A stretch of DNA of 64,000 bases from Bacteroidaceae bacterium (lineage in GTDB: Bacteria > Bacteroidota > Bacteroidia > Bacteroidales > Bacteroidaceae). The notes beneath the pieces were generated by a model, which was not told the DNA's origin, ran no database searches, and saw only the letters and a program-made list of their open reading frames with translations. Positions within the stretch are counted from its first letter, which is position 1. Each line of letters opens with the position of its first letter. The stretch is from positions 1 through 64,000 of the forward strand of contig JAFSRW010000065.1 of NCBI GenBank assembly GCA_017445925.1, in the 5' to 3' direction. This document shows, one piece after another, positions 4,730-33,250 of the stretch. The translations under genes were made by a program, and so were the position numbers.

Positions 4730-5539
4730 ATGAAAATACTTTTTCAATGGTCGATGACCGCAGCCTTGATTTGCGGCGCAAGTGTATTCACGGCATGTTC
4801 GAGCAATGACGACAACCCCATCAAACCTGACGAACCTGCTGCTGAGGCGGTGCACCTCACTCAGCAATATAGCGTCAGCACCCTCGCCAACGGCGATACC
4901 ATGGCGATCTCCATCATGGACTATATCTGGGAGGACGGCCTGCTGCGCACTACTCACAGCTACCTTAACATGCCCACCTATCACAGCGTCTCTGAAAGTG
5001 ACTATTTCTACGTCTATGACGACGACGGCAACTGCATCGAGGAGCACTACGTCTCCGACAACCGACACCATGACTATTACCTCACCTACGAGGGCGGCCT
5101 CATGACCAGTGGCATCGAGATGTCCAACGACGAAATCATCGGGAAGGTCACCATCACTGGCCACACCGCTGACGGACAAATCCAGGCCATCACCTCGGAG
5201 AGATTGCTAACTGGCACCATCAGCAATTACGAGATTACCTGGGAGAACGGCGACATGACCGCTTACACAGTGTACGTCAACAGGCCCGGAGAGGAAGAGG
5301 AGATCCAGAACGTCACCATCGGATACGACGACTATCCCAACATCAGTACCGGCATGCCCTTGGCCAGTGACGTCTTCGACCCGCAGATGATTGCCAGCAC
5401 AGCCTCGGTACACAACTGGGACATCGGCGAGGAGAGATTCTACGCCAACGGCCGCGTGGTTAAGGCTATTAAAAAGAACACCGCCCTGACCGGTGTCATC
5501 TATTACACCTACAGCGACGGCACCACCGGAAAGGAATAG
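4730..5539 (+). CDS. Secreted lipoprotein with YD-type beta repeats
   Basis: 269 residues. The leader (LFQWSMTAALICGASVFTAC) ends in a lipobox with Cys23, and the acidic SSNDDNP that follows resembles a Bacteroidota lipoprotein surface-export signal. The mature part is rich in Tyr, Asp and Thr, with repeated short strands (YFYVYDDDGN, DYYLTYEGG, YEITWENGD). This is the look of the YD-like, DUF4595-type beta repeats also seen in the genes at 8952 and 10483; I assign the family only tentatively. It is first in the lipoprotein island and is probably transcribed from the promoter at 4646. No catalytic motif is visible, so binding or a structural role at the cell surface is likely. Confidence 0.75.
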   Translation: MKILFQWSMTAALICGASVFTACSSNDDNPIKPDEPAAEAVHLTQQYSVSTLANGDTMAISIMDYIWEDGLLRTTHSYLNMPTYHSVSESDYFYVYDDDGNCIEEHYVSDNRHHDYYLTYEGGLMTSGIEMSNDEIIGKVTITGHTADGQIQAITSERLLTGTISNYEITWENGDMTAYTVYVNRPGEEEEIQNVTIGYDDYPNISTGMPLASDVFDPQMIASTASVHNWDIGEERFYANGRVVKAIKKNTALTGVIYYTYSDGTTGKE

Positions 5540-5675
5540 CTGGAAAAATGCTGAAGACGGAATAACGATCTAAAATTATAAACAACAGGACTAAAAAAAT
5601 CCCTGTAACTAACTATATTTCAATGATGGCAAAGAACGATTAGCGATTATTAGTGGACAGCAATGATAAGATAAC

Positions 5676-7868
5676 ATGAACAGGTTCTTTCAATGGATGA
5701 TGGCCGCCATCCTGATCTGCGGCTCAATGGTATTTACGGCGTGTTCAATGGAAGACAATCCCGCAGGCGGGACTGGCGCATCGGGTATTGCCATGATTGT
5801 GAAGAACGGACAGATTGACTATTGGCGCCAGATAGAGACGGCGTTCCGCGATGCCTGTCAGGAGAAAGGCCTCGAGGCCTACTACTACGCCACGTCGGCA
5901 GAGACCGCCTACGAGGAGCAGCTGGCTGCCGTGGAAGAGCTGCGCAAGCTCGACTACAAACAACTGAAGGGCATCATCTTTGCGCCCAGCTACGGACTGA
6001 ACGGCGAGAGTGCCGAGGCCGAGGTGGCCGCTCTGGCCCAGGAGCGCGGCATACCCGTCATCATCCTCGACTCGCCCGTCGGTGCCACGAGTCCGCTGGC
6101 CTCATGCCCCTACTTCGGCACCGACAACACCGCTGCCGGTCAGGCGATGGCTGAGAAGGTGACAGCCGACAAGGTGGCTGTCTTCGCCACGACCAACAGT
6201 CCCGGCGTAGAACGTGCCGAGGCTTTCAAGGCCATGAAGCCCAATGCCGTCATCTATCAGGTAGGCGACAAGTGCAACGACGAGGTGCAGGCCGTGCTGG
6301 ATGAGTACGACACCTTTGTCTTCTGCAACGGCAACAGCCTCGTCGATGCCATCCCCATGCTCAAGGATGCCAGCAAGCAGGTCTATACGTTCGACATCTA
6401 CGGTGAATTCCTTGACGAGCTGATTGATTACAGCCCCATGCTCAAAGGCATCATGGCACAGAACACGTTCGAGATGGCCCGCAAGGCCGTGGAAGCCGTC
6501 GTCACCAATGCCAAGCAGGGTGAGATGATACCCACTTTCTACATGACGCGGAGTAATCTGTACGCCCCCATCGTGCAGCCCTTCCTCAAGTTCTACTACC
6601 AGGAGAGTTTCGAATTCTGCGACGGTCTTTACTATCTGTTGGACTATAGTGACAATACGGCGGCAGTTTTTGAGCCCGTAAACTATGGTAGATATACGGG
6701 CGACATCGTCGTGCCTGACACCGTGGAGATGGACGGTATCAAGTTTGCCGTGACCACCATCAACGATGGGGCATTCTCGCGTGCAAGGCTCACCTCGCTG
6801 AAACTCCCGAAGACGCTGAAGAAGATAGGCGACTGGGCCTTCCAACAAACCAGTGGGCTGAAGACCTTCAACATCCCGGAGACCGTGACCTCCATCGGTG
6901 AGAGTGCCTTCAGGGAATTACCCGACCTGACACGCATTCACATTCCTGCCAGCGTCGAAGTGATGGAAGATCACGCCATTGGTGGGTGCCCACTACTGGA
7001 AAGCATCACCATAGACGAGGGCAACACGCACTACGGCATCTATGACGGCGTGCTGATGGACAAGGCCCAGACACGTCTCATCGTGTATCCCGCCAAGTTG
7101 CCCGGCACCACATACACCGTACCGGCCACTGTGAAAACCCTCGACAAACTGGCCTTCCGAGAAGTCACAAACCTGAAGTCGGTGACGATTCCAGCCGCTG
7201 TGTCTAATCTCGAGTATGATATGTTTGAATATTCCTACTCACTGGAAGAAATCAACATCGACCCCGCAAATTCCAACTATTGCTCGGAGGACGGCGTGGT
7301 CTATAGCACTAAGAAGGACAGCCTCATCGTCTATCCCGACGGCAAGCCCGACAAGAGTTACACCCCGAACGCAGCAACCAAAGTAATCGAAGAATACGCA
7401 TTCGCCAATGCATCCCAGTTAGAGAAAGTGACCGTCCCCGAGGGTGTCACCACGATCAGCAATGCTGCATTTTTCCAATGCTACTCGCTGAAAGAAGTCA
7501 GTTTTCCTGAATCCGTCACATTGGTGGGACCTTCTCTTTTCGCCTATTGCGAGAAACTGGAGTCGGTAATCCTACCCCCGCATATCACTAAGATTCAGAT
7601 GGCTACGTTCTTCGACTGCAAGGCACTCCGCAGCATTACCATTCCTGCAGAGGTCACTTTCATCGACTTAGCGGCCTTCTACCTGTGTGACAGCTTGAAG
7701 GAAGTCACCTGTTTAGGCACGACACCGCCGACGGCAGACCCCTCTGTTTTCGTTACGTTACAGACTAATCAGATGACCCTCTACGTACCCGACGAGTCCG
7801 TAGATCTGTACAAGGCAACCCCCGTCTGGAAGGACTTCAACGTACAGCCAATCTCCGCGAAGCAATGA
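5676..7868 (+). CDS. Lipoprotein: periplasmic sugar-binding-like domain fused to BspA-type LRRs
   Basis: 730 residues. The leader ends at FTAC with Cys23, followed by SMEDNP. Residues about 38-315 resemble type 1 periplasmic sugar-binding domains (IVKNGQIDYWRQIETAFRDA, IPVIILDSPV, FGTDNTAAGQAMA, TFDIYGEFLDELI). They are clearly homologous to the same region of the gene at 14758. Residues about 345-720 are BspA/LRR_5 repeats (for example ITTINDGAF, KKIGDWAFQQTSGLKTFNIP, VTSIGESAF), a fold used by Bacteroidales and trichomonads for adhesion. The combination suggests a surface ligand-binding adhesin. No ABC or TonB partner lies next to it. A 136-bp spacer precedes it; its own promoter was not identified. 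Confidence 0.85.
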   Translation: MNRFFQWMMAAILICGSMVFTACSMEDNPAGGTGASGIAMIVKNGQIDYWRQIETAFRDACQEKGLEAYYYATSAETAYEEQLAAVEELRKLDYKQLKGIIFAPSYGLNGESAEAEVAALAQERGIPVIILDSPVGATSPLASCPYFGTDNTAAGQAMAEKVTADKVAVFATTNSPGVERAEAFKAMKPNAVIYQVGDKCNDEVQAVLDEYDTFVFCNGNSLVDAIPMLKDASKQVYTFDIYGEFLDELIDYSPMLKGIMAQNTFEMARKAVEAVVTNAKQGEMIPTFYMTRSNLYAPIVQPFLKFYYQESFEFCDGLYYLLDYSDNTAAVFEPVNYGRYTGDIVVPDTVEMDGIKFAVTTINDGAFSRARLTSLKLPKTLKKIGDWAFQQTSGLKTFNIPETVTSIGESAFRELPDLTRIHIPASVEVMEDHAIGGCPLLESITIDEGNTHYGIYDGVLMDKAQTRLIVYPAKLPGTTYTVPATVKTLDKLAFREVTNLKSVTIPAAVSNLEYDMFEYSYSLEEINIDPANSNYCSEDGVVYSTKKDSLIVYPDGKPDKSYTPNAATKVIEEYAFANASQLEKVTVPEGVTTISNAAFFQCYSLKEVSFPESVTLVGPSLFAYCEKLESVILPPHITKIQMATFFDCKALRSITIPAEVTFIDLAAFYLCDSLKEVTCLGTTPPTADPSVFVTLQTNQMTLYVPDESVDLYKATPVWKDFNVQPISAKQ

Positions 7869-7923
7869 ACCTTGCCCATCCCCGGTCTAAAGGGCGAGAG
7901 GAAATTTTAAAAGATTAAATAAG

Positions 7924-8910
7924 ATGAAAAAGATGATGACTTGGGTGATAGCCCTGGCCCTTATTGGTGGAGTAACATCGTGCACATCATGTACGTGGAA
8001 TAAGGATAATGTTCCATCGGTTGAGGTGTCGGAGTATATCCCCAAGGCACCAGACTATAACGACACGACCATGTGGGTGACTGCCGATGGCGATACTGAC
8101 GGTACGGGCGCAGATGTGTTCTATGTGGTATCAACGTGGGAGGACGACTGGACAACTGAGGACGGACGTATTTGCCACTATGCCGACGTGTGGAACCCGA
8201 AGCACCGTGCCCGCATGGCTGAGTTGGAACTGAACAAGATTGCTGCCTATATGTCGCCGGGCAACCGCTTCTTTGCGCCTTTCTATCGTCATACGACTAT
8301 ACAGACGTTTATGACGAACAGCGAAGACACCGTGTATCAGCGCACCCGTCTGTCGATAGGGGATGTGTGCAAGGCATTCGACCACTTTCAGGCCCAACGT
8401 GACCAAAGCCGTCCGCTCATCATTGCCGGCTTCAGCCAGGGCGGTCTGTCGGTAGTGGAACTGTTGAAGCATATCAGCGACACGACCTATAGTCAACTGG
8501 CAGCTGCTTACGTCTTAGGTTACAAGGTGACAAAGGACGACATAGAGGCGTGCAGCCACATTCGACCTGCTGAGGGTGAAACCGACACAGGCGTGACCAT
8601 CTGTTACAATACGGTGAAAGATGTGAAGTATGTGCTGCCCATCATTGCTGCCTCTGCTATCTGCATCAATCCCGTGAACTGGCGCACCGACGATACGCCA
8701 GCCACTCTTAAAGACACCATTACCATCACTGTCTCACCTGAACACCACGTGCTGGTGGCTACTAACTATTGCGCCTCAGAGTATCCGCCATTCCGTGGAT
8801 TCCTGAACGTGGGCGACATCCATAGTTGTGAGCCGTGGCTCTACAGCGAGTGCCTGCAAAAGAATATCGGGGTACGTGCCAAAGAGTGGCGTAAAAAGAG
8901 TGCATATTAG
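7924..8910 (+). CDS. Secreted DUF3089-type alpha/beta hydrolase
   Basis: 328 residues with a lipoprotein-like leader; Cys20 or Cys23 could be the lipidated residue (VTSCTSC). The nucleophile elbow GFSQGG places the catalytic Ser at residue 171. The flanking sequence (VFYVVSTWEDDW, a long helix before the elbow, AAYVLGYKVTKDD after it, and an Asp/His region towards LNVGDIHSCEPW) matches DUF3089 alpha/beta hydrolases, extracytoplasmic esterase or lipase-like enzymes of unknown substrate. The leader differs from its neighbours and lacks the AAILICG core, although it keeps the short MTWVIALALIGG hydrophobic block. The gene lies in line with the other island lipoproteins, 55 bp after the previous one. 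Confidence 0.8.
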   Translation: MKKMMTWVIALALIGGVTSCTSCTWNKDNVPSVEVSEYIPKAPDYNDTTMWVTADGDTDGTGADVFYVVSTWEDDWTTEDGRICHYADVWNPKHRARMAELELNKIAAYMSPGNRFFAPFYRHTTIQTFMTNSEDTVYQRTRLSIGDVCKAFDHFQAQRDQSRPLIIAGFSQGGLSVVELLKHISDTTYSQLAAAYVLGYKVTKDDIEACSHIRPAEGETDTGVTICYNTVKDVKYVLPIIAASAICINPVNWRTDDTPATLKDTITITVSPEHHVLVATNYCASEYPPFRGFLNVGDIHSCEPWLYSECLQKNIGVRAKEWRKKSAY

Positions 8911-8951
8911 TATCTTCGCAGCATAATAAAAAAAACTAAAACAAATGACTT

Positions 8952-10460
8952 ATGAAAAATAAATTATTACAATGGATGCTCGCCGCCATCCTGTTCTGCG
9001 GCGCAATGGTGTTCACATCGTGTACGAACGAGGATAATCCCGCCGACCCTGCGGCTAATCTCTCTGAGAAGATTATCGGGAAGTGGGTGACGGCGGACAT
9101 CGACGGGCAGACGGTGCTGACCAACAGCAAGAAGGCCATCACCTTCGTCTCTGCCACCAAAGCCTACATCAGCGCTGCGTTCAACGCCAATCCGGAAATT
9201 GGGGCGCACTGGCTTAACAAAATGGAAGTCGCCGTGGCCATCGACGGCAACAAGGTGACTGTCACCAGCCATCCCGACGAGCATACGACCACAGTGGAGG
9301 AACTCACCGTCACCACCATTAGCGGCAGCGAGTTCAGTGCCAACCGCAAGCTGACCGCCACCGTTGACGGCAATATTGTGGATACAAAAAATGAAATTAT
9401 CCGCTACGTGAAGCAGACCGCCGACTACAGCGAGGCCATCCTCGGCCTGTGGGAGTGCCAGGGCATCACCGGCGGCGAGACCAACAACGACGACAACGCC
9501 CGCCTGGAGTTCCTGGCCGACGGCACGTACAACTTCTACCGCCGCAGCGACGCCGGCGTGTGGAGCCTCGTGCCCCGCGAGCGCAACGAGTACTTCGTGG
9601 ACGGCAACCTGCTCTGCACCCGCTGGCAGGCCGAGGGCGAGGAGATGAGCTACGAGTGGTGGGAAATCACCTCCGCCGCCGACGGCCGCATGCAGTGGAC
9701 CGCCCTCCGCCAGCAGGCCGACGGCACAACCTTCCAGCAGGGTGTCACGTGGACAGCCGCCGAGGCCCGCACCGTGCTGGCCAGCATGGACTTCAAGGGC
9801 CATCCCTTCTACGGCGACCTGACGTATAGCTACGCCTACGACGATGACTGCCGGCTGGTCAAGATGAAGAAAGAGCAGGTGGGCACCGGTCTGGTCATCA
9901 CCGAGTTCGACTACACCTACACCCCCGGCCACATCACGAAACAGGGCCGGGAGGAAGCCTACACCGTCACCGAAGAATGCAGCCTGGACGACCACGGGCG
10001 CATCGTAGAACTGGTACGCAACAGCATCAATAGCGAAACGCAGAAGGAACATCATTACAAATACACCTACACCTACGACGAGGACGGCCGTCTGGCCACC
10101 GTGTCACAGTGGGTGGAAGGCGAAACGAATGCCCTCCTCACCACCTTCGCCTGGCAGGACGGCGAGCTGCGGTCCAAGACTACCGATCAGGCGTCCGTCC
10201 TCATGGTGAATGACTACGAGCCCGGCGACGCACCGGCGCAGGCACTCTTCGGTCATATCGGCTACTCGGAAGCCGACGAGCTCTGCCCCCAGGGCTGCTT
10301 CGGCACGCTGCCCCTCCACCTGCCCTCGAAGCAGACAGTCATCCTGACCTACAATGGTGTAGAGATGTCCAAACGCACCACTGAATACTCCTACACCGTC
10401 ACCGACGGCCGCCTCGCCGCCGCCAACGACAACTACTTCCTGCACTGGGAGATGAGATAA
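8952..10460 (+). CDS. Lipoprotein: paired lipocalin-like domains plus YD-type beta repeats
   Basis: 502 residues. The leader ends in FTSC (Cys24), then TNEDNP. Two lipocalin-like beta-barrel domains follow: the first near residues 36-155 (EKIIGKWVTADIDGQ), the second near 158-275 (AILGLWECQGITGG to MQWTALRQQADG). The same pair occurs in the genes at 13782 and 14758. The C-terminal ~210 residues are YD-like repeats (YSYAYDDDCRLVKMKKEQ, YTYTPGHITKQGR) closely matching the whole mature part of the next gene, 10483. The protein is therefore a chimera of two neighbouring families. Base composition between about 9.4 and 10.4 kb is visibly richer in G and C than in the paralogues further right. Function is probably ligand binding at the cell surface. 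Confidence 0.8.
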   Translation: MKNKLLQWMLAAILFCGAMVFTSCTNEDNPADPAANLSEKIIGKWVTADIDGQTVLTNSKKAITFVSATKAYISAAFNANPEIGAHWLNKMEVAVAIDGNKVTVTSHPDEHTTTVEELTVTTISGSEFSANRKLTATVDGNIVDTKNEIIRYVKQTADYSEAILGLWECQGITGGETNNDDNARLEFLADGTYNFYRRSDAGVWSLVPRERNEYFVDGNLLCTRWQAEGEEMSYEWWEITSAADGRMQWTALRQQADGTTFQQGVTWTAAEARTVLASMDFKGHPFYGDLTYSYAYDDDCRLVKMKKEQVGTGLVITEFDYTYTPGHITKQGREEAYTVTEECSLDDHGRIVELVRNSINSETQKEHHYKYTYTYDEDGRLATVSQWVEGETNALLTTFAWQDGELRSKTTDQASVLMVNDYEPGDAPAQALFGHIGYSEADELCPQGCFGTLPLHLPSKQTVILTYNGVEMSKRTTEYSYTVTDGRLAAANDNYFLHWEMR

Positions 10461-10482
10461 TAACAATTAAAACAACGTGAAT

Positions 10483-11265
10483 ATGAGAAAGATTCTTTGC
10501 ATTATTTCCGTCGCCCTGCTCGCGCTCACGGCCTGCACGAGCAGCGACGACAATCCCGTCAAGCCCCAGCCTGAACCCAGGACGGTGCTGGTGGGCCTGG
10601 AGTTTAGAAACAAGTACCCCGCCGGCCCCTCAATGGAAGTCTATACCTACGACGCCGACTACCGGCTGGTCAATATGAAGGAAATAGAGGTGGGCACCGG
10701 CGATGTCCTCGCCGACCTGGACTACATCTACACCCCCGGGCACATCACCAAGAAGGGCAGGGACCTCTTCTACGACATCACCGACGAGTGTACCTTGGAC
10801 GACCAGGGGCGCATCGTCGAATATCATCACAAAAACGTCAAGATTGAAACGGGACAGTTGTTGTCGGATTACCTCTACACCTACACCTACGACGAAAACG
10901 GCCACATGGCCACCACGCACTCGGGAGACTATGTAGAAACATATATCTGGGAGGGCGACGAGCTGCGCACCAGGACCATGGCTGAGGGCAACGCCTACAC
11001 CACGTATGACTTCGAGCCCAGCGATGCACCGGCACAGGCTCTCTTCAACAGGTTTGGCTACGATCTGCCCGAACTCTGCCTGCAGGGACGCTTCGGCGTG
11101 CTGCCCGCCCACATGCCTGCGAAGGTAACCTCTGCCGCGTACATCGACGGCACAATGTTATTCACAAGTGTCACCGAATTCACCACCACCACCGACGACG
11201 ACGGCCATCTGGGCACTGTCTCTACAGGCAACACCACTTTCGTCCTGCACTGGGGACAGCAATGA
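10483..11265 (+). CDS. Lipoprotein with YD-type beta repeats
   Basis: 260 residues. Leader MRKILCIISVALLALTAC with Cys18, then TSSDDNP. The mature part repeats the C-terminal module of the upstream gene almost motif for motif (YTYDADYRLVNMKEIEVGTG, YIYTPGHITKKGRD, TLDDQGRIVE, YTYTYDENGHMAT), so it arose by duplication or by splitting of that gene. An in-frame GTG at 10477 is possible, but the ATG at 10483 fits a lipoprotein leader better. The bases around the start (AAAACAACGTGAnTATG followed by a conserved leader start) are nearly identical to those at 12594, so the leader was duplicated together with its translation-initiation region. It follows the previous gene by 22 bp, probably in one transcript. 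Confidence 0.8.
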   Translation: MRKILCIISVALLALTACTSSDDNPVKPQPEPRTVLVGLEFRNKYPAGPSMEVYTYDADYRLVNMKEIEVGTGDVLADLDYIYTPGHITKKGRDLFYDITDECTLDDQGRIVEYHHKNVKIETGQLLSDYLYTYTYDENGHMATTHSGDYVETYIWEGDELRTRTMAEGNAYTTYDFEPSDAPAQALFNRFGYDLPELCLQGRFGVLPAHMPAKVTSAAYIDGTMLFTSVTEFTTTTDDDGHLGTVSTGNTTFVLHWGQQ

Positions 11266-11349
11266 AGCAAGTTTTCACTTTGCGTTCTTGCGTCCCTGCG
11301 GTTCTTTGACATACTGAGACAAACGGATAAAATCTGTAGGATTTGAAAG

Positions 11350-11480
11350 ATTTCTCGCCACGAGGCGACGAATCTCAGAAAAAATGTGTAACTTTGCGGC
11401 GTACGCCGCGAGTCTGCTCACGCTCGGCAATTGGAACTTGTTCCATTGCTCTCGGCTTGCACGAGCCTTGCGGCGAAAAA
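11350..11480 (+). promoter_or_regulatory. Structured leader and promoter of the DUF3791/DUF3990 module
   Basis: A -7 element TAACTTTG lies at 11389-11396. Just before it is a hairpin-forming stretch (about 11350-11376). Immediately after it come a perfect 14-bp palindrome GCGGCGTACGCCGC (11396-11409) and an inverted repeat CAATtGGAAC/GTTCCATTG (11428-11448). The ~95-nt untranslated leader therefore can fold strongly and could control translation of the first gene. Confidence 0.5.
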
Positions 11481-11493
11481 TTATAATAAGGTT

Positions 11494-11718
11494 ATGGCAC
11501 GCGAAGAAAGAAACATTATCGGCTATACGGTGGGACTCATCAGCGAGTTTGCCAAGCACTACGGCATCCATACCCGCCAGGCCTACGCCTACTTGAAGCG
11601 CTTCAAGGGCTTGGAGCACTTTCATGAGCATTACGGTGTGCTGCACACCCAGTCGTTTGCCGACACGGTGGACGTGCTCACACAGGTTTGCCTAAACAAC
11701 GGAGGACAGCTGCGATGA
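11494..11718 (+). CDS. DUF3791-family small protein, probable antitoxin
   Basis: 74 residues. The C-terminal half, with YGVLHTQSFADTVDVLTQVC, matches the DUF3791 pattern in which an LHTQG-like motif follows a helical N-terminus. DUF3791 genes are commonly found beside DUF3990 genes. The start at 11494 (MAREERNIIG) is preferred to the longer frame from 11431, because the extra codons are the structured leader. Its stop overlaps the next start as ATGA, so the two are translationally coupled, as in toxin-antitoxin operons. No DNA-binding motif is obvious, so if it is an antitoxin it probably acts by direct binding. Confidence 0.7.
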   Translation: MAREERNIIGYTVGLISEFAKHYGIHTRQAYAYLKRFKGLEHFHEHYGVLHTQSFADTVDVLTQVCLNNGGQLR

Positions 11719-12200
11719 TACGACTCTACCACGGCTCGAACATGAAAATCGAGGTGCCCGACCTCGTCCACTCCAAGCCCTTCAAGGACTTCGGCAGCGG
11801 CTTCTATCTCTCGCCCGACAAGCAACAGGCATGGGACATGGCGTTCCAGAAAGTCAATCAGACCAGAGAGGGCAAGGCCGAGGTCACGGAGTTCCTGTTC
11901 GATGAAACGCTGATGCAGTCGGAGCAACTGAAGGTGCTCAACTATCCCGACTATTGCGAGGAGTGGGCACTCTTCGTGCTGGCCAACCGCGACAAGAAGG
12001 CGACGCATCCCATTCACGACTACGACATCGTCTATGGCCCGATAGCCGACGACGGCGTTACCTACCAGTTGCGCCGCTACGAGGGCGGAGTCATCTCCCT
12101 GGCCCGTCTGGTCGAGGAGTTGAAATATGCCAAGGGCATCACCTTCCAGTATTTCTTTGGTTCCGAACAAGCCTTGCAACAATTAAAGCGACTACGATGA
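11715..12200 (+). CDS. DUF3990 protein, probable ADP-ribosyltransferase-fold toxin
   Basis: 161 residues, cytoplasmic. The N-terminus RLYHGSN and DFGSGFYLSPDKQQAW (residues 25-40) fit the His and Tyr positions of the H-Y-E class of ADP-ribosyltransferase folds, to which DUF3990 is related. Acidic candidates for the third position occur in CEEWALFVLANR and near VEELKYAKG. It is sandwiched between two small DUF3791-type genes with ATGA overlaps at both ends, the layout of a toxin with one or two cognate antitoxins. The assignment to the fold is from known family relationships. Toxicity, NAD use and target are inferred, not shown. Confidence 0.7.
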   Translation: MIRLYHGSNMKIEVPDLVHSKPFKDFGSGFYLSPDKQQAWDMAFQKVNQTREGKAEVTEFLFDETLMQSEQLKVLNYPDYCEEWALFVLANRDKKATHPIHDYDIVYGPIADDGVTYQLRRYEGGVISLARLVEELKYAKGITFQYFFGSEQALQQLKRLR

Positions 12201-12430
12201 AAAGACTGACAGCAGAACAGATTCAACTCTTGAAGGACGACCTGTGCGTGGAGCTGGCCGGATACCTGGTCGACGACTACCACTATAGTCCCGAGGAAGC
12301 CATTGAGGTGCTTTATACCTCCGAGACCTTTGATCGCCTGCAGGAAGACGAGACGGGACTCTACTACCAGAGTCCGGGTTACGTCTACTCATTTCTGCAG
12401 AATGAATTGAAGACAGCAAGAGTGGCTTAG
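12197..12430 (+). CDS. Second small DUF3791-like protein
   Basis: 77 residues, acidic (MKRLTAEQIQLLKDDLCVEL, then YSPEEAIEVLYTSETFDRL and LYYQSPGYVYSFLQNEL). The layout of helical N-terminus followed by an aromatic-Tyr-Gln motif mirrors the gene at 11494, but the two are only distantly alike. The start overlaps the toxin stop (ATGA). It may be the true antitoxin, a second one, or a partner that modifies the toxin. Nothing gene-like follows until 12594. Confidence 0.65.
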   Translation: MKRLTAEQIQLLKDDLCVELAGYLVDDYHYSPEEAIEVLYTSETFDRLQEDETGLYYQSPGYVYSFLQNELKTARVA

Positions 12431-12593
12431 CCACTACATCTAATCCCCCCTACAGATTTTCCGTTTTGGGGCTTTGCCTCGAAGAAAGTCACGCCCGGCA
12501 GAATGAGCGAAGAAGCTCTTTTGCCCTCGCTTAATCCGTTCTTTGTCTCAGCAATTATATAATAAAATGTATAATAATAAAAACAACGTGATT

Positions 12594-13724
12594 ATGCGAA
12601 AGATTCTAAACTACCTCCTAACGGCCGCGACGGTTTGCGGCATCAGCTTCGCCGCCGCTTCGTGCACGAGCAGCGACGACAACCCCGTCAGTCCTGATGC
12701 CGGCGAGACGTTCTCTATAGTGACACTCAATGTTGACGGACTGCCGGCATATATTGATGCCACCCTTATTGGCATGGGTGTAATGCCTCTCAATGTGGAA
12801 GGTCCGGGTGAAAAATACACATCAGTCATAAGCCAGTATCTGGTCGAAAAGGACTTTGACTTTATCGCAGTCCAGGAAGATTTCGATTTTAACGCCCAAC
12901 TTGACTCAAAACTGAAGGGAGGCTATAATCTAAGTGATACTTGGGGTGGTCCGCTCTCGTTAGAAGCATATCTTGCAGGGGTTGAGCAACCTGTGTCATT
13001 AGAAACGGTACTGGCTGCTCTGGAAAAAGGAACATTTTGCATACATTCAGATGGTTGCAGGCTGTATTGGAAAAATGATATTAGCGGCACCCGCGTTGAC
13101 AGTGTAAGCTGGAAAACCCGATTTGGCGATGCTATCAGACCCACACATATAAATCATGCCAATGATGAAATGATGTCCAAAGGCTTCCGGCGCTATGAGA
13201 TGAAGTTGAAAGGTGGTACGGAGTTGGTGGTGTATAATATGCACTTGGAAGCCAGTGATGATGAGACAGAGGCAACGGGTGAGGATGCTGTCGATCGCAG
13301 GTCACGGATGGCTCATTATCGCGATTTGCGCGACCATATCATGAAGCATCTCGATAAACGTCCTATTGTTGTCGTCGGCGATATGAATAGCTATTATGAG
13401 CGCGACAGTGTGGAAATACAGTTCATCAATGAAATCAACAAATCAGGACGAGCTACAATCGGAGACGTATGGATAGAGTTAGAGCGCGGAGGCAAGTACC
13501 CAGCTCTGGAAAAAGGGGTTGTGATGCAGGATTTGGGTAGTAGAGGATGGTCTCGTAAGGGGCAGACCCTTGACAAGATATTCTACGTGAATCCTGTTGA
13601 CGCTGTGAGGAGATTGAAGCCTATGAGCGTAACAGTTGATTCTGTGGGATTTGTTCGAGAGGACGGCTGGACTCCACTTGGCGACCATTCACCTCTTAGT
13701 GCTGTTTTCTGCTTCGAAAGGTAA
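12594..13724 (+). CDS. Lipoprotein of the endonuclease/exonuclease/phosphatase family
   Basis: 376 residues. Leader MRKILNYLLTAATVCGISFAAASC with Cys24, then TSSDDNP. The mature domain shows the EEP pattern in order: TLNVDGLPA at the N-terminus, the metal-binding Glu in DFIAVQEDFD, a substrate-side MHLEASDD, VVVGDMNSY (catalytic Asp and Asn) and a C-terminal GDHSPLSAVF (the Asp-His pair). All key residues are present, so it is probably active, as a phosphodiesterase (nuclease, sphingomyelinase-like or inositol-phosphatase-like) at the cell surface. The start was chosen at 12594 rather than a TTG at 12543, because it gives a clean leader. The initiation region is nearly identical to that of 10483. 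Confidence 0.85.
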   Translation: MRKILNYLLTAATVCGISFAAASCTSSDDNPVSPDAGETFSIVTLNVDGLPAYIDATLIGMGVMPLNVEGPGEKYTSVISQYLVEKDFDFIAVQEDFDFNAQLDSKLKGGYNLSDTWGGPLSLEAYLAGVEQPVSLETVLAALEKGTFCIHSDGCRLYWKNDISGTRVDSVSWKTRFGDAIRPTHINHANDEMMSKGFRRYEMKLKGGTELVVYNMHLEASDDETEATGEDAVDRRSRMAHYRDLRDHIMKHLDKRPIVVVGDMNSYYERDSVEIQFINEINKSGRATIGDVWIELERGGKYPALEKGVVMQDLGSRGWSRKGQTLDKIFYVNPVDAVRRLKPMSVTVDSVGFVREDGWTPLGDHSPLSAVFCFER

Positions 13725-13781
13725 TGTAAAGGCACCGCCTTCGACTATTTAAATTAGACTCATTATTTAAAATAAGATAAT

Positions 13782-14666
13782 ATGAAAATTTTGGTTAAGA
13801 GAGAGCAAAGCCAAACGGGTTTGAACTTTGACGAGCGTGAGAAAATTGGACTGAAGGTCAAAAGGTTATTCCAATGGGTGATGGCCGCCATACTGATTTG
13901 CGGCGCAACACTGTTCGCATCGTGCTCAAACGAAGATAATTCCTCTGCCCCTGCAACTAATATCTCTGAGAAGATTCTAGGGAAGTGGATGTATGCCGAC
14001 ACAGACGGACAGCCCACTCTGACCAACAAGAAGGCCATCTATACCTTTGTTTCTGACACCAAGGCTTTGATGAGTGCATCGCTTAACTCACATCCGGAAG
14101 CGGGTACTCAATGGATTGACCAATTAGAAGCCGATGTTGTCATCAGCGGAAACAAGATGACGCTGGTTAACCATCCCGATAAGCAGACCACTATGGTAGA
14201 GGAATTTATCATCACTGACATCAACGACAGCGAGTTCAACGCTAATCGCAAGATAACTATCACGGCTGATGGTGCTGTGGTGATTTCTGTAGAGCAAGTC
14301 GTTCGCTTCACCAAAGTCATCTCCGACTACCGTGCTGACATCATTGGCACATGGGAAGGCCGCTGCACAAGCGAAAACTCAGTCTTTGACGACGGGCAGG
14401 AGCATCGCTGGCAGTACAATGCAGATGGAACGTATGTTTATTATGTAAAGGACGGCGACAACTGGGTTCCTTACGAGGGCAATACGCTGAACGAATACTT
14501 CGTGGATGGCAACCTGCTATGCACCCGCTGGATTGACTTGGGTCAGGAGAACCGCGAGTGGTGGGAAATCACCATCTCTGGCGACAAGATGAACTGGACC
14601 GCCCTGCGCCAGAAAGAGGACGGCTCCACCTTTACCGCCACCTTTGAGATGAAGAAAGTGGAGTGA
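13782..14666 (+). CDS. Lipoprotein: paired lipocalin-like domains, with extended leader
   Basis: 294 residues. Lipobox FASC with Cys48, followed by SNEDNS. The mature part contains only the two-domain lipocalin-like module (EKILGKWMYADTDGQ, then ADIIGTWEGRC to MNWTALRQKEDGS) found in 8952 and 14758. Oddly, about 26 extra residues (from MKILVKREQS to KIGLK) precede the usual VKRLFQWVMAAILICG leader. The only nearby ATG in frame is at 13782, and no start codon sits at the usual place, where paralogues have Met-Lys-Lys. Either the original start was lost and an upstream one captured, or a CTG is used. Function is presumably ligand binding. Confidence 0.75.
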   Translation: MKILVKREQSQTGLNFDEREKIGLKVKRLFQWVMAAILICGATLFASCSNEDNSSAPATNISEKILGKWMYADTDGQPTLTNKKAIYTFVSDTKALMSASLNSHPEAGTQWIDQLEADVVISGNKMTLVNHPDKQTTMVEEFIITDINDSEFNANRKITITADGAVVISVEQVVRFTKVISDYRADIIGTWEGRCTSENSVFDDGQEHRWQYNADGTYVYYVKDGDNWVPYEGNTLNEYFVDGNLLCTRWIDLGQENREWWEITISGDKMNWTALRQKEDGSTFTATFEMKKVE

Positions 14667-14757
14667 GTGAATACTTCTTTAACTTCATTAACTCCTTTAA
14701 CTACCGACTACTTAACTACTTCAGAAAGTTGAAATATTAATTTTAAATTAAAATGTC

Positions 14758-16431
14758 ATGAAAAAGGTTTTATTATGGATGATGGCCGCCATCCTTATCT
14801 GCGGCACAACAGTGTTTACGGCATGCACGAACGATGATAATCCTGCTGTCGATAGTAGCAGCACTCTTGCCCTAATCGTCAAAAACGGAGACATTGAGTA
14901 CTTTCAACAGATAGAAAGTGCTTTCCGTAATGCTTGTAAGGAGAATAACCTTGTGGCAGCTTACTTTGCTACTACCGATGAGAATGCCTGGCAGGAGCAG
15001 GTGGATGCCGTAAATAAACTGAGAAGCCTAAGCGGCACCAAGCTTAAAGGTTTCATCTATGCTCCCTGCAAGGGTCCTAACGGCGAGTGTGCCGACGCTG
15101 CAGTGGCTGATTTGGCAAAAGATCTGGGCATCCCCGTTGTCATCCTCGACTCGAAGGTCAATGAAGGCAGCCCCTTGGTTAACTGTCCCTTCTTTGGTAT
15201 TGACAACACCGCCGCTGGCAGTGCGCTGGCTCAGCAAGTTACAGCCGATAAAATCGCCAGCTTCGGCATCATCACCAGTCCTGGCGCTGAGCGTGCCAAC
15301 GGCTTTATGAAACTGAAGCCCAACACTACCTTTACTGAGATACCCGAGAACTCCAGCGAACAGGTACAGGCCGCCATGGACGAGTACCAGACCTTCGTCT
15401 TCATGAATGGCTCGGCTCTTTATCCCTCTTTTTCCTTCCTGAAGGATTCAGGCAAAGAGGTCTATACCTTCGACATCTATGACTCTTTCCTCGATGAACT
15501 CATCGCTGGCAGCTCCTGGCTGAAGGGAATTATGGTTCAGAACACGTTCGAGATGACCCGCAAGGCAGTTGATGCAGTACTCACGAATGCCCAGGAGGGT
15601 GAGATGGTTCCGACCTTCTTCATGACTCAGGACAACCTTAACGATTCTAACGTGAAGCCTTTCCTGGAATTCTATAACAAGACAGTCCCAGCCCCTATCG
15701 AAAACCTCGCTGAGAAACTCATCGGCAAGTGGATGGATAGCGAAGCAGACGGGCAGCCTGCATTGACTAACGAAAAGTCGGTTGTCACCTTCATTTCGCC
15801 CACCAAGGCTATCTACAGCACGTCAAAGACCGACTATACAGAGAGTCAGCCCAAATGGTCTGTTCATCGCTTATACGATGTTAATATTTCCGGCAACATG
15901 GTTACCCTGACCGGTCATCCCGAAGGTAATCCGAAAATTACGTTGCAGGAGGAGTACTTCATCACTGCCATTACTGCTACCGAGATAGTTTGCAAGTATA
16001 AGCATACAACCTTCCATAACGGACAGTTGGAAGGCACCGTCACCGAAAAGAAGGATATCCGACTGAAGAAAATCGACGTAGATTATCGCGCTGACGTCCT
16101 TGGCATTTGGGAATGTAAGGCTATCACAGGTGGGGATACCTTCAACGATGACAATGCCCGCCTTGAGTTCAAGGCCGATGGCACATACAATTTCTACCGT
16201 AAGACCGACGGCGGGCAGTGGCAGGCTGTTACCACCCGCGAGTTCCAGGATTACTTCGTGGACGGCATGCTGTTAGATACGCGCTGGAAGAATCAGAGCG
16301 AAGCCGAAATGCGCGAGTGGTGGGAAATTAAATCCTTTAACGGTGACAAGATGGTATGGACCGCCCTGCGCCAGAACGGCGACGGCTCTACCTTTGAGCA
16401 AACCGTGGAGTGGGAGAGAGTTGAAAGTTGA
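14758..16431 (+). CDS. Lipoprotein: periplasmic sugar-binding-like domain fused to paired lipocalin-like domains
   Basis: 557 residues. Leader ending FTAC (Cys23), then TNDDNP. Residues about 37-312 are the same sugar-binding-like domain as in 5676 (LIVKNGDIEYFQQIESAFRN, IPVVILDSKV, FGIDNTAAGSALA, TFDIYDSFLDELI). Residues about 320-555 are the two-domain lipocalin-like module (EKLIGKWMDSEADGQ; ADVLGIWECKAITGG). It is thus a domain-swap partner of 5676 (same N-terminus, different C-terminus) and of 13782 (same C-terminus). The terminal residues ERVES and the TGA lie inside the start of the composite repeat at 16425. Role: probably binds a small ligand; no transporter genes adjoin. Confidence 0.85.
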   Translation: MKKVLLWMMAAILICGTTVFTACTNDDNPAVDSSSTLALIVKNGDIEYFQQIESAFRNACKENNLVAAYFATTDENAWQEQVDAVNKLRSLSGTKLKGFIYAPCKGPNGECADAAVADLAKDLGIPVVILDSKVNEGSPLVNCPFFGIDNTAAGSALAQQVTADKIASFGIITSPGAERANGFMKLKPNTTFTEIPENSSEQVQAAMDEYQTFVFMNGSALYPSFSFLKDSGKEVYTFDIYDSFLDELIAGSSWLKGIMVQNTFEMTRKAVDAVLTNAQEGEMVPTFFMTQDNLNDSNVKPFLEFYNKTVPAPIENLAEKLIGKWMDSEADGQPALTNEKSVVTFISPTKAIYSTSKTDYTESQPKWSVHRLYDVNISGNMVTLTGHPEGNPKITLQEEYFITAITATEIVCKYKHTTFHNGQLEGTVTEKKDIRLKKIDVDYRADVLGIWECKAITGGDTFNDDNARLEFKADGTYNFYRKTDGGQWQAVTTREFQDYFVDGMLLDTRWKNQSEAEMREWWEIKSFNGDKMVWTALRQNGDGSTFEQTVEWERVES

Positions 16432-16508
16432 AAATCAGCCTCACCCCTAACCCCTCTCCCGTGGGCGAGGGGAACTAACAAATGGGTAAATGGCTAAATG
16501 GTAAATGC
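16425..16508. repeat. Composite repeat, second copy of the rarA-type mosaic
   Basis: Same order as 2566-2733: AGTTGA element carrying the stop of the upstream gene, then TCAGCCTCACCCCTAACCCC with a G-rich complement, then an aaatgggtaaatgg run. Confidence 0.8.
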
Positions 16509-16509
16509 C

Positions 16510-19673: not shown

Positions 19674-19687
19674 CTTCAGTATAGAAC

Positions 19688-20801: not shown

Positions 20802-20826
20802 ATTTGCATTTTGAGAGGTTCTCTGG

Positions 20827-21017: not shown

Positions 21018-21025
21018 TAACTTTG
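21018..21025 (+). promoter_or_regulatory. -7 promoter element for the ketoisomerase gene
   Basis: TAACTTTG, 18 bp before the ATG at 21044. This excludes the longer frame that would begin at 21023. Confidence 0.65.
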
Positions 21026-21043
21026 CATAAAATATATGGTTGT

Positions 21044-21472
21044 ATGGGAATAAATTCACAGTTTAAGATGCCTAAAGGGTGCCGGTTGATAGAACTGCCC
21101 CTGATTGCTGACGAACGCGGTGCGCTGGCTTTTGGGGAGTGTGAGAGGCACATCCCGTTCAAAATAGAGCGTGTGTTCTGGACGTATAACATCACAGATG
21201 GACTGACCAGAGGTGATCACGCACACAGAACCTGCTCTATGGTAATATTTCCGTTGGGCGGTAGCTTTAAGATGGAGGTGGACGATGGGGAAGAGCAGAT
21301 TGTGCTGGAGATGAACGACCCTCATGTGGGAATACTGATTCCACCCTTGGTATGGTGCAAGCTTTACGATTTTACACCTAATGCTGCCTGTGTGAGCCTG
21401 GCATCTGAGCTATACAGCGCTGAGGATTACATTCATGATTATAAAGAATTCCTAATGCTTGTTAAAGATTAA
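21044..21472 (+). CDS. dTDP-4-oxo-6-deoxyhexose 3,4-ketoisomerase (FdtA/WxcM-C-like)
   Basis: 142 residues, a single cupin barrel. Family motifs: ADERGALAFGE, IERVFWTYNI, TRGDHAHR (active-site histidines) and FPLGGSFKMEVDDGEE. These enzymes move the keto group from C4 to C3 of a dTDP-6-deoxyhexulose so that an aminotransferase can then act at C3. The following gene at 21581 carries that aminotransferase, so the pair forms a short pathway to a 3-acylamino-3,6-dideoxyhexose for surface glycans. It is cytoplasmic. The spacer between the two genes is a heptamer repeat about 100 bp long. Confidence 0.88.
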   Translation: MGINSQFKMPKGCRLIELPLIADERGALAFGECERHIPFKIERVFWTYNITDGLTRGDHAHRTCSMVIFPLGGSFKMEVDDGEEQIVLEMNDPHVGILIPPLVWCKLYDFTPNAACVSLASELYSAEDYIHDYKEFLMLVKD

Positions 21473-21571
21473 TGTTCAGTGCTCAATGTTCAATGCTCAA
21501 TGTTCAATGCTCAATGTTCAATGTTCAATGCTCAATGTTCAATGTTCAACGTTCAATGTTCAATGTTCAAC
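21473..21571. repeat. Heptamer tandem repeat (aatgttc/aatgctc)
   Basis: About 14 copies, 7-bp period with few changes. It fills almost the whole spacer between the ketoisomerase and the fused aminotransferase. Confidence 0.9.
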
Positions 21572-21580
21572 GATTAAAGA

Positions 21581-26277: not shown

Positions 26278-26286
26278 GCGGGGCTG

Positions 26287-28797: not shown

Positions 28798-28805
28798 ATT
28801 CAAAT

Positions 28806-29406: not shown

Positions 29407-29763
29407 AGTTTTCTAATTTTGGACCCTTCCCCAACCCCTTCCCTCTAAGGACGGGGCTCTTAGATTCCGGACTCTATTTGTCCCTCCCCTAAGGGGAGGC
29501 TAGGTAGGGCCTGTTAAGTTTTAGTTTGTAAATAATTTTTTCTTTGTCTCAGATGGGGTGCTAATTTTGGGCTTTAGAGGGCGAATAGCACTCCTTTTCA
29601 AAGGCTGTTTAAAGTGTGTTTCCCCTCTCTAACGGTCCGTGAGGATCATGAGGAATGTCATAAGTAATATATAATATGTGTTAATAAATTTTCATTCGGT
29701 TAATTTGAATGGTTGGTATTGACCAATCAACCTCCGCCGTCTGCGACAGATAGCGGATTTACT

Positions 29764-29796
29764 TCTAGAGTCTAAGGTCTAAGGTCTAAAGTCTAT
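29764..29796. repeat. Heptamer tandem repeat (tctaagg type)
   Basis: Five heptamers (tctagag, tctaagg, tctaagg, tctaaag, tctattt) in 7-bp register, intergenic. Confidence 0.8.
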
Positions 29797-29878
29797 TTTT
29801 CGACTTGAGGAAAGAGGAATCTTTCCCATTTTTGAAAAAATAAAACCGTTTTGTTCCCCTGTTTATAGAAAAGTTTTG

Positions 29879-29886
29879 TATATTTG
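29879..29886 (+). promoter_or_regulatory. -7 promoter element for the five-gene protease cluster
   Basis: TATATTTG, 73 bp before the ATG at 29960. It is the only clear promoter found ahead of the five closely spaced genes to 38332. Confidence 0.6.
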
Positions 29887-29959
29887 CACGGTAATTTTAC
29901 AAAACAGCAACACACCAAGTATGTATTCTGAGCTCGAAATAAACTTTAAGGTCGTATTA

Positions 29960-31369: not shown

Positions 31370-31390
31370 TTAGAAATTAAAAAATATACA

Positions 31391-33250
31391 ATGAAAAAGG
31401 TTATGAATTGGGTGATGGCCGCCACCCTGATCTGCGGTGCCATAAACGCATACGACGTGTCAGCCTGCACGAATATTATTGTAGGCCGCAAGGCATCGAC
31501 CGACGGTTCTGTGTTCCTTAGCTATTGTGCTGATGCCAGCGGATGGTTCGATCCGTTGTTCTACTCCCCTGCAAAGACCCATCAGCCAGGCGAGATGCAC
31601 AAAATCTACGACTGGGACTGCTACATATACCATGGTGAAATCCCCGAGGTCTATCAGACGTGGAATGTGGTGGGCAACACCAATGAGTGGCAGCTCACCA
31701 TCGGCGAATCATCGTGCTTCGGAAGAGATGAGATGGTGGATGAGACTGGTATCATTGACTACGGCTCACTTATCTATATCACTTTGCAGCGTTGCAAGAC
31801 AGCCCGCGAGGCCATTAAGACGATGGTATCTCTGGTGGAACAATACGGCTACTACTCTTATGGCGAGACGTTCTCCATCTGTGACCCTAACGAGGCATGG
31901 ATGCTCTATATGAACGGTTGCGGACAAGACCGCATCACATCCCCCGAACGAACCGTATGGGTGGCCTTGCGAGTACCCGACAATGCTGTAGCTGCTCATG
32001 CCAACTACTGCCGCCTGACGAAGTTCCTGGATGGCCGATACACACGGATAACACTCGACGAGTTGGATACTAAATACCCTGCCGACGGTGAAGACGTGCC
32101 CCAGCTGATGGTCTGCTCAAATAATGTGGTCAACTACGCTCGGAAGATGGGATGGTATGAGGGCACGGATGCCGACTTCTCCTATAATGACGTCTATGAT
32201 TCCAAATCATTCTTGTATTTACGTTGTTGCGAAGGGCGCGTGTGGAGCATCTATAACCGTTTCGCCAACGACATGGACCAGTACCTTCCCTATGCCAGCG
32301 GTGCTGATTTTGATGCGGAACCTATGCCACTGTGGATTGTACCGAAGCAGAAGGTTGGACTAAAGGACCTGCGTGCCGCCATGCGTGACCATTATGAGGA
32401 CACACCATTTGCTAACACCGGCATCAACGGCGGATGGTTCGACACGCCTTACTCCATTTTACCCATAGATTATGAGGAGGGCGGCGATGAGTATTTCACT
32501 GAGCGCACCATTTCCACCATGGAATCGGCCTGGTGTTTTATCTCGCAGATGCGTTCGTGGATGCCTCGCGAGACTGGGTGCCTGTGGTTTGGCAATGACG
32601 AAGGCAATATGGTGGCCTATACGCCCCTGTACAACTGTCTGACGCGTGCGCCCAAATGTTTCTCCGGTGAAGGCGCCTCAGAGACAGAATTCTCCATGGA
32701 TAATGCCTACTGGGTGTGCAACTGGGTGTCGAACATGATCTATCCGCGTTACTCTATGATGTTCCCATCGCTGCAGGCCGTGCGCGACTCGCTGGACAAT
32801 TCCTACGAGCAACTGCAGCCCAGCATTGAAGAGCAGGCTTTGGCACTCGATGCCGATTCCCGTGTAAAACTGCTCAGCGACTACAGCTGCCAGAAGAGTG
32901 ACGAGATGATAGAACGCTGGCGCAAACTGGCATTCCACTTGATAGTGAAATATAATGATATGGTTGTGCGAGGAACCAACGCTGACGGCTCTTTCATCGT
33001 CAATGAGTTTGGACGGGCAGCTGACATTCAGTATCCATCTATTTCTGATACGTTCATCCGCACCCATGTACAGGTGGCCGGCGACCGCTATCGCATACCT
33101 GAGAGCGACGCCGAGCCGACACGTATTGCTCCCGTTAAGCGTCCACTACGCCGCTTCGGTTATGGAACCTATAACCCCTCAGGCGTGCAAGCCAACCCAC
33201 GTGTTAAGGGTGTATATATTTCTAATGGGAAGAAGCAAGTGGTTAAGTAA
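31391..33250 (+). CDS. C69-family dipeptidase (Ntn hydrolase)
   Basis: 619 residues. The leader (MKKVMNWVMAATLICGA) resembles that of the island lipoproteins. Here, however, Cys26 of SACTN is the catalytic nucleophile of a peptidase C69/U34 Ntn hydrolase, exposed once the signal peptide is removed. Supporting motifs: NIIVGRKASTDGSVFLS, VVGNTNEWQLTIGESSC, DYGSLIYITLQRCKTARE and SICDPNEAWMLYMNGCG. It is paralogous to 56458-58125. Such enzymes hydrolyse dipeptides in the periplasm or outside the cell. It lies between a lipoprotein and a coiled-coil membrane protein in a tightly packed set of genes. An open question is whether its leader is read by SPI or SPII. Confidence 0.88.
   Translation: MKKVMNWVMAATLICGAINAYDVSACTNIIVGRKASTDGSVFLSYCADASGWFDPLFYSPAKTHQPGEMHKIYDWDCYIYHGEIPEVYQTWNVVGNTNEWQLTIGESSCFGRDEMVDETGIIDYGSLIYITLQRCKTAREAIKTMVSLVEQYGYYSYGETFSICDPNEAWMLYMNGCGQDRITSPERTVWVALRVPDNAVAAHANYCRLTKFLDGRYTRITLDELDTKYPADGEDVPQLMVCSNNVVNYARKMGWYEGTDADFSYNDVYDSKSFLYLRCCEGRVWSIYNRFANDMDQYLPYASGADFDAEPMPLWIVPKQKVGLKDLRAAMRDHYEDTPFANTGINGGWFDTPYSILPIDYEEGGDEYFTERTISTMESAWCFISQMRSWMPRETGCLWFGNDEGNMVAYTPLYNCLTRAPKCFSGEGASETEFSMDNAYWVCNWVSNMIYPRYSMMFPSLQAVRDSLDNSYEQLQPSIEEQALALDADSRVKLLSDYSCQKSDEMIERWRKLAFHLIVKYNDMVVRGTNADGSFIVNEFGRAADIQYPSISDTFIRTHVQVAGDRYRIPESDAEPTRIAPVKRPLRRFGYGTYNPSGVQANPRVKGVYISNGKKQVVK

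Follow-up and report, generated by a model that had tools for sequence, protein, structure and literature searches.

The locus described here raises the question of why a run of neighbouring genes for otherwise dissimilar lipoproteins should open with nearly the same leader, and what this leader does for the proteins encoded behind it. The stretch of DNA analysed (the window) comprises 64,000 nucleotides of contig JAFSRW010000065.1, which is contig 23 of a 100-contig, 3.3-Mb assembly (GCA_017445925.1, 84% complete) from a member of the Prevotellaceae. Genes are named by the position of their first nucleotide in the window, and the prefixes G, C, L and g stand for genomes, contigs, loci and genes of the comparison set. 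An earlier note on this DNA described the region from 4730 to 33250 as a local island of lipoprotein genes in which modules are exchanged behind a leader proposed to act as a homology handle, and interpreted it as a surface-antigen diversification system. The comparisons reported below suggest that the leader is probably a promiscuous element of the whole Prevotellaceae that is joined to many different bodies by recombination at the leader, making it a recombining export tag. It seems to act as an exchangeable tag for export and not as part of an antigen-switching machine. Three sequence-level observations underlie this reading: the leader DNA is homologous between genes, bodies are transferred horizontally and breakpoints lie within the leader.

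The leader is approximately 30 codons long and encodes a signal peptide, a Cys residue for lipid attachment and an acidic patch. Conservation rises just before the ATG and drops to background past approximately codon 30. A consensus resembling MKK..QWMMAAILICG..VFTAC.xDDNP is seen at 4730, 5676, 8952, 13860 and 14758, and the leader 20-mer given in the earlier note finds five matches in the window at ≤3 mismatches and none in shuffled sequences. The gene at 13860 lies within the open reading frame (ORF) 13782-14666, in which the leader proper occupies 13860-13946. A profile built from six window leaders (4730, 5676, 8952, 13860, 14758 and 31391) and searched against the same genome returned 24 matches at E<=10, 12 of them at E<=1e-5. 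Seven of these strong matches fall in the window (the six genes above and 7924) and the other five are located on contigs 7, 95, 33, 50 and 98. Since the six leaders were used to build the profile, their high scores (E = 5e-19 to 5e-21 for 4730, 5676, 8952, 13860 and 14758) arise by construction, and independent support is provided by the matches outside this set. The leader claimed at 4730, 5676, 8952 and 14758 and within ORF 13782-14666 is recovered by both consensus and profile, and the profile adds the DUF3089 gene 7924 (E 1e-6), which had been overlooked. At 31391 the claim holds for the leader DNA core, which is 81-83% identical to that of 5676, 13860 and 14758 over 36 nucleotides (83% to 5676); the usual lipobox is absent, only VSAC is present immediately before the C69 peptidase domain that forms the body, and no C-x-x-DNP follows the leader. 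The genes 10483 and 29960, listed as leader variants, are missing from the 24 matches and carry other leaders, while the third proposed variant, 12594, matches only weakly (E 2e-4). The leaders of 10483 and 12594 share an exact match of 20 nucleotides. No NCBIfam family matches the leader in the ten window proteins scanned, and no description of it was found among the entries listed by a literature search whose scope took in little of the subscription literature.

Searches of other genomes place the leader well beyond a local island, with matches throughout the family. It is present in 70 of 139 genomes of the same genus at E<=1e-5 and in 47 at E<=1e-8, and a sample of the family yielded it in at least 58 of 399 genomes and at least 9 of 30 genera. 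In a sample of the order (295 genomes), the window's own genome was matched and none of the 294 others, the 21 rows listed holding only three other genomes of the family. The family and order counts are lower bounds, as in many genomes the scoring covered part of the first-look candidates (20 of 46 in one example). Among the matches listed, at least 120 named loci contain the leader pattern, nearly all of them from metagenome-assembled genomes (MAGs), many from the rumen, that are labelled Prevotella, Prevotellaceae, Bacteroidaceae or Bacteroidales; one isolate, Xylanibacter brevis ATCC 19188, is included. The leader pattern also occurs at L311, on a contig labelled Verrucomicrobia (UBA1263), through either mis-binning or transfer.

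For detailed comparison, 80 stretches were fetched, of which 75 were among the leader matches listed in the genus search, three came from the window's own genome and two from elsewhere. From these and other loci, 143 distinct leader genes were picked by protein profile. A lipobox-like Cys is found in 131 of the 143 leaders (in the window at 4730, 5676, 7924, 8952, 13860 and 14758), and 99 of these 131 have at least two acidic residues at +3..+6, an acidic residue being present at +4 in 69, at +5 in 91 and at +6 in 79.

Codon usage indicates that the leaders are related as DNA. The codon table was compiled from protein-selected loci with one leader per body family, leaving 29 usable leaders, and replaces a first table that was dropped because it took in loci chosen by DNA pattern. 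Ala+3 and Ala+4 are encoded by GCC in 20/25 and 23/27 leaders, respectively, compared to 0.50 in bodies; Ala+10 is GCA in 10/13 (0.19 in bodies), Ser+11 is AGT in 8/12 (0.13) and Val+12 is GTA in 8/11 (0.14). The codon choice is specific to the position and switches direction along the leader, with GCC at Ala+3/+4 and GCA at Ala+10. A control set of 29 further lipoprotein-like signal peptides encoded at the same loci (including 10483 and 12594) lacks such a pooled preference, and a preference for ACA at Thr residues late in the leader was discounted because these other signal peptides have it too. Comparison of leaders from different families at 2773 positions with the same residue gave the same codon at 1656 (0.60), whereas 0.42 was expected. 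These position-specific codons are found again in 25 leaders of seven other genera (19 genomes), with GCA at Ala+10 in 12/12; this set was not thinned by body family and several of its leaders precede the same kind of body. Since the bodies are unrelated, vertical inheritance from one gene is unable to yield this codon sharing, and the leader DNA is, on the codon evidence, of common ancestry across unrelated bodies.

The bodies that follow the leader are varied. Bodies of at least 40 amino acids are present in 141 of the 143 genes and group into 31 families by single-linkage BLASTP (1e-5), although remote relatives are possibly split, one 43-member family is chained by multidomain proteins and two families, whose longest body is <100 amino acids, probably consist of cut genes. 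Pfam scans covered representatives of 20 of the 31 families, ten further genes (mostly from AraC-linked loci) and ten window genes. Seventeen kinds of body exceed the curated cut-offs, 12 of which are enzyme families by our count, and six of the 30 non-window proteins have no Pfam match at E 0.001. The kinds identified include LRR_5, DUF3089, COesterase, Abhydrolase_3, GH3, M15, C11, C69 and DHH, as well as iPGM, phosphatidylserine (PS) decarboxylase, cupin, three phosphatase kinds and an ABC transporter. One phytase-like body also matches Tc-R-P, a family named for polymorphic toxins. Phosphoglycerate mutase, DHH phosphoesterase and phosphatidylserine decarboxylase are normally cytosolic. The leader-bearing phosphoglycerate mutase of G125 (548 amino acids; L189 48-1691, G125:C73), which contains what we take to be the motifs of its family, is 72.0% identical over 511 amino acids to a copy of the same genome that lacks the leader, and a leaderless copy is present in all six genomes searched. 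A further cluster occurs at L430 1476-6306 (G507:C1, a single contig), where three consecutive leader genes encode a peptidase, a DHH-like and a GH3-like protein by sequence resemblance; the peptidase, presumably M13-like, resembles a leader-bearing peptidase of X. brevis ATCC 19188.

Several genes are chimeras in which, as read from the alignments, similarity switches inside the leader or at its end. Gene g24 of G007 is identical at 173 of 175 positions, from -100 to +75, to G581, which belongs to another genus. Beyond +75 it is identical to g39 of G035, a relative of the window, at 238 of 250 positions versus 181 of 250 for G581, and the switch point is located within 11 identical bases just past the Cys codon. 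The similarity of the body is horizontal, because rarA of G007 is 70.4% identical to that of G101 and 70.9% to that of G035. The second case involves L236, which has two leader genes in tandem, the first 66% identical at the amino acid level to g25 (DUF3089) and the second 60-61% to g50 and g116 (COesterase). In L310, which represents the same DNA as G052:C86, the upstream region and leader of the first gene (93.8%) precede the body of the second (96.8%), and the two L236 leaders have 33 identical bases at +18..+50, a tract also found in L310. Two separately named assemblies, L300 and L317, have the same single-gene arrangement as L310; because these two loci, g50 and g116 have a lone COesterase gene, a deletion in L310 and an insertion in L236 are both possible. 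The third case is L431, which comes from a single-contig genome. Over 1242 bases, the last of which lie in the leader, it matches L322 at 98.6% identity, and its body is 95.2% identical to L308. Shared 5′ regions are also found at 4730, G000:C7 and G035:C33, which have the 5′ untranslated region (UTR) and leader in common (83-92%) ahead of three different bodies, and at loci linked to a gene that we take from its C-terminal sequence to be AraC-like. These AraC-linked loci, in G029, G086, G101, G035, G034 and G040, have related upstream DNA and leader, followed by DUF3089, the shared region plus DUF3089, COesterase or Abhydrolase_3.

Counted over pairs, shared upstream DNA and leader with loss of in-register body similarity (scored within 16-120 nucleotides of the ORF) is observed in 15/57 leader pairs and 0/26 controls (Fisher p 0.002). 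Removal of three pairs, one driven by a repeat and two in which a common DUF3089 is displaced, leaves 12/54 (p 0.007). A wider set of 307 distinct leader genes, which takes in genes selected by pattern, gives 16 rows with a shared 5′ module and a different or diverged body, largely reciprocal and some possibly from cut genes. The shared 5′ segment, which comprises the flank, the UTR and the signal peptide with its acidic patch, measures approximately 190-320 nucleotides in two cases.

Within the window, the leaders from 4730 to 16431 form a tandem direct array; every leader is on the + strand and no inverted copy was found in the window. G035 retains 4730, 5676, 7924 and 14758 at 92.9-99.3% amino acid identity, and has a single leader gene in place of 8952, 10483, 12594 and 13860, the 5′ flank of 8952 and the 3′ flank of 13860 being near-identical in both genomes. 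Similarity falls at the start codon of this replacement gene, which is approximately 70% identical to both 8952 and 13860 and was for this reason rejected as a mosaic of the two. A promoter swap between 13860 and G035:C94 was also rejected, since the upstream DNA that they share is a dispersed repeat. The 10-kb segment 28810-38902, which includes 29960 and 31391, is absent from G035, where the flanking matches to 28809 and from 38903 are adjacent. The upstream flank of 4730 has a 93% identical counterpart in G104 that extends to 4680 and is followed by another gene. The longest exact leader tract between window genes of the leader family is 21 nucleotides (5676/14758), all others being ≤16, which makes a local homology handle marginal in the window; recent crossovers at this site may depend on DNA from outside. 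The chimeras, which switch in the leader or at its end and in one case share the 33-base tract, do support the earlier note in that bodies are recombined behind a shared leader.

A number of results weigh against recombination at the leader or restrict its extent. The junction pairs come from approximately four independent loci, and counted per locus (4/46 versus 0/26, p 0.29) the excess is not significant. The bodies of both G007 partners are homologous over the region of approximately 240 amino acids, so g24 documents a breakpoint without showing a move to an unrelated body; L322 is a short stub after the leader, so a loss in L322 is possible. Two AraC-linked loci occur in G029, which means that these loci may be partly paralogous, and the COesterase and Abhydrolase_3 bodies are distantly related. 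Left borders of homology at the core gene rarA fall at -30..+100 in 37/52 pairs, none inside the ORF. Because rarA behaves likewise, the start-codon borders seen in 9/17 leader-gene pairs and 0/6 controls prove little, and the sharp edges of homology seen at start and stop codons were rejected as evidence; a border within the ORF is found in 6/20 leader pairs at >=85%. The ordinary secreted gene 17805 matches four distant genomes from nucleotide 80 onward only, and between G000 and G035 its leader is less alike (0.62) than its body (0.91). The greater similarity of leader DNA relative to the bodies, as stated in the earlier note, holds modestly for two homologous window pairs (0.76 versus 0.66 and 0.65 at the nucleotide level) and is reversed in 61 of 65 relative pairs with unrelated upstream DNA, a reversal that was itself rejected as evidence because an ordinary signal peptide does the same. 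These relatives were classed by upstream DNA alone, in place of hand-picked lists, giving from 79 pairs 65 unrelated, ten shared and four dropped for short upstream DNA. Leader and body distances, which were compared in place of trees, correlate in all six families analysed (Mantel r 0.35-0.81; p<=0.021 in five), so leaders and bodies are mostly co-inherited and a general uncoupling of their histories, as the earlier note would have it, is not supported. The pair g77/g78 represents transfer of a whole gene with its upstream DNA (95.8% identity including 600 nucleotides upstream, versus 81.3% for rarA). Homogenisation of leaders within a genome is weak, 68 of 2000 shuffles reaching the observed level, and strong gene conversion within a genome was rejected on this basis. 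Most genomes are metagenome assemblies, L310 being a 3.7-kb contig, the C69 peptidase 31391 is the sole clear enzyme among the window leader bodies, and the surface location is predicted. The controls (rarA borders, 17805, co-inheritance and g77/g78) indicate that leader exchange is real but occasional.

As a recombining export tag, the leader would operate through ordinary homologous or short-homology recombination, through which an incoming body is fused to the promoter and leader already in place. Selection would then retain in-frame joins, the product being exported, lipid-anchored and probably displayed on the cell surface; such a join could be selected at once, because any body so joined would be exported and anchored. 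The window run 4730-16431 may be a site where leader bodies accumulated and were swapped, as with 8952-14666 against the one gene of G035. Given the many enzyme bodies across the family, the likely benefit would be turnover of the set of surface enzymes and binding proteins, which is the least certain step of the scheme. A bolder and distinctly tentative proposal is that the leader represents an 'export exon', passing between genera as a mobile 5′ module and converting cytosolic enzymes, once duplicated or imported, into enzymes of the cell surface. Bacteria do not have exons, and it is to our knowledge an open question how a new protein comes to have a functional signal peptide; here the joins, their likely partners and once a shared tract at the switch are readable in DNA. 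If the recombining tag is real, a bacterial family would re-tool its surface by bringing different bodies under one common export tag, and body phylogeny alone would be insufficient to predict surface proteomes.

Other explanations were weighed against the recombining tag. The diversification system proposed in the earlier note, in which surface antigens undergo selected or programmed reshuffling, is in keeping with the predicted surface lipoproteins, with the BspA-type LRR, binding-protein and unnamed bodies of the window (and its one clear enzyme) and with the single gene that G035 has in place of 8952-14666. Many bodies across the family are enzymes, however, the window leaders have a single orientation, 4730, 7924 and 14758 are 98-99% identical in G035 at the amino acid level, and no recombinase was identified among the 20 window proteins scanned by Pfam, which represent part of the window ORFs, making this explanation unlikely. 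We regard as quite improbable that selection alone accounts for the data, with the leader as a strongly constrained export signal that descends vertically together with its body and the likeness of the DNA reflecting codon or mRNA constraint. Conservation does return to background outside the leader, and leader and body distances do correlate within families, as such constraint would have it; the codon sharing across unrelated bodies and the chimeras G007, L310 and L431 argue the opposite, and leader codons are barely more conserved than body codons (135/157 versus 2286/2805 in nine hand-picked pairs, most with shared upstream DNA).

That the joins are assembly artefacts, with metagenome assemblers fusing different genes at the repeated leader, deserves consideration because the genomes are mostly MAGs, several leader genes are near contig ends and the 33-nucleotide tract of L236/L310 approaches the small k-mers that assemblers use. 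This is nevertheless very unlikely: the G007 switch offers merely 11 identical bases, L431 belongs to a single-contig genome and the tandem leader genes of G507 to a single contig, L300 and L317 repeat the L310 arrangement in separately named assemblies, and the isolate X. brevis ATCC 19188 has the leader.

Known systems resemble the recombining tag in part. The Vpma surface lipoproteins of Mycoplasma agalactiae recombine at the 5′ end by means of a site-specific recombinase and inversions; both systems feature several surface lipoproteins with 5′-end recombination, whereas the window has neither an inverted leader nor a recombinase among the 20 proteins scanned. The YSIRK/GXXS signal peptides of Gram-positive surface proteins, which use a special export route, are likewise recognisable signals on surface proteins and differ in phylum and anchoring. 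The lipoprotein export signal (LES) of Bacteroidota, described for Capnocytophaga and Bacteroides, has the optimum C-X-K-(D/E)2-X in Capnocytophaga (PMC5080379). The leader similarly has Cys followed by polar and acidic residues, with an acidic peak at +4 to +6 that spans LES +4/+5, and its lipobox Cys and acidic patch are the sequence features of a predicted Bacteroidota surface-lipoprotein signal; LES is a short amino acid motif, whereas here the whole leader of approximately 90 nucleotides is homologous DNA across unrelated genes. The csa1/lpl 'gene accordions' of S. aureus are also direct tandem lipoprotein arrays that recombine, with genes 46.1-81.9% identical (PMC7360770), but the bodies described here belong to different families and homology is confined to the leader instead of running the full length. 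The polymorphic SitA lipoprotein toxins of myxobacteria also place a type II signal sequence before varied C-terminal domains, these being toxin domains with adjacent immunity genes (PMC5562445); the Pfam matches of the leader genes are mainly to ordinary enzymes and binding proteins, and no search was aimed at immunity genes. By analogy, the leader would combine the properties of a promiscuous targeting module with those of a tandem array that recombines.

The features of the window are listed in Table 1. Window leader bodies comprise binding-protein, LRR, DUF3089, DUF4595, C69 and unnamed regions, and the module layout given in the earlier note is largely right, with Peripla_BP_4 and LRR_5 in 5676 and Peripla_BP_4 plus the region shared with 13860 and 8952 in 14758. 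This region of approximately 240 amino acids is the 'lipocalin pair' of the earlier note, a putative fold assignment. The exception is the YD repeats assigned to 8952 and 10483. The C-terminal region common to these two genes (74% over 211 nucleotides) is matched by Pfam to DUF4595 (E 1e-8 in 8952), with an RHS/YD match of merely E 0.07.

Table 1. Leader genes, other lipoprotein genes and associated segments of the window
Feature	Position	Strand	Evidence
5′ module, probable promoter and 5′ UTR	4567..4729	+	Common to G000:C7 and G035:C33, with other bodies; 83-92% identity into leader
Leader lipoprotein, body without Pfam family	4730..5539	+	Leader E 5e-19; best Pfam E 0.04; G035 orthologue 99.3% (amino acids)
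Leader, Peripla_BP_4 and BspA-type LRR_5	5676..7868	+	Pfam, profile; G035 orthologue 92.9% (amino acids)
Weaker leader and DUF3089	7924..8910	+	Leader E 1e-6; DUF3089 E 8e-46
Leader, region common to 13860/14758 and DUF4595	8952..10460	+	Profile, Pfam
Lipoprotein, different leader, DUF4595-like C-terminal region	10483..11265	+	DUF4595 E 9e-5, below cut-off
Exo_endo_phos-like lipoprotein, weak leader	12594..13724	+	Leader E 2e-4; Pfam E 3e-4, below cut-off
Leader and ~240-amino-acid region common to 8952/14758	13860..14666	+	Profile; ORF opens at 13782 in dispersed repeat
Leader, Peripla_BP_4 and shared ~240-amino-acid region	14758..16431	+	Profile, Pfam; G035 orthologue 98.9% (amino acids)
Four-gene block (8952, 10483, 12594, 13860), single leader gene in G035	8952..14666	+	Near-identical flanks in G035
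Lipoprotein, unrelated leader, Mfa2 match over ~50 amino acids	29960..31369	+	Mfa2 E 1e-4; not among leader matches
Leader DNA core and C69 dipeptidase	31391..33250	+	Leader E 6e-11; C69 Pfam E 7.5e-64; core identity

The dispersed repeat upstream of 13860 is a palindrome-like element of approximately 80 nucleotides (13782-13860), with which ORF 13782-14666 begins in frame and which holds its ATG. The element is found in 19/139 same-genus genomes at E<=1e-5, with six copies in G054, and it also precedes a signal peptide, again in frame, in G035:C94 (L114) and apparently in G122:C33 (L116). It recalls the in-frame palindromes of Rickettsia. Other repeats are present as well. Related intergenic repeats at 2553-2743 and 16412-16531, composed of a CCCTAACCCC motif and TAAATGGGTAAATGG tandem units, flank the run of leader genes. 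Tandem 14-mers (AATGTTCAATGCTC) at 21464-21568 precede ORF 21581, which encodes a GNAT and DegT fusion, and 33-nucleotide in-frame tandem repeats are found at 33980-34144, close to the 3′ end of ORF 33302-34159. Elsewhere in the comparison set, L089 4215-5054 and L091 889-1734 are orthologous DUF4595-like genes (Pfam below cut-off) that are 99% identical, with neighbours at 86-90%, and that differ in sequence before approximately codon 7.

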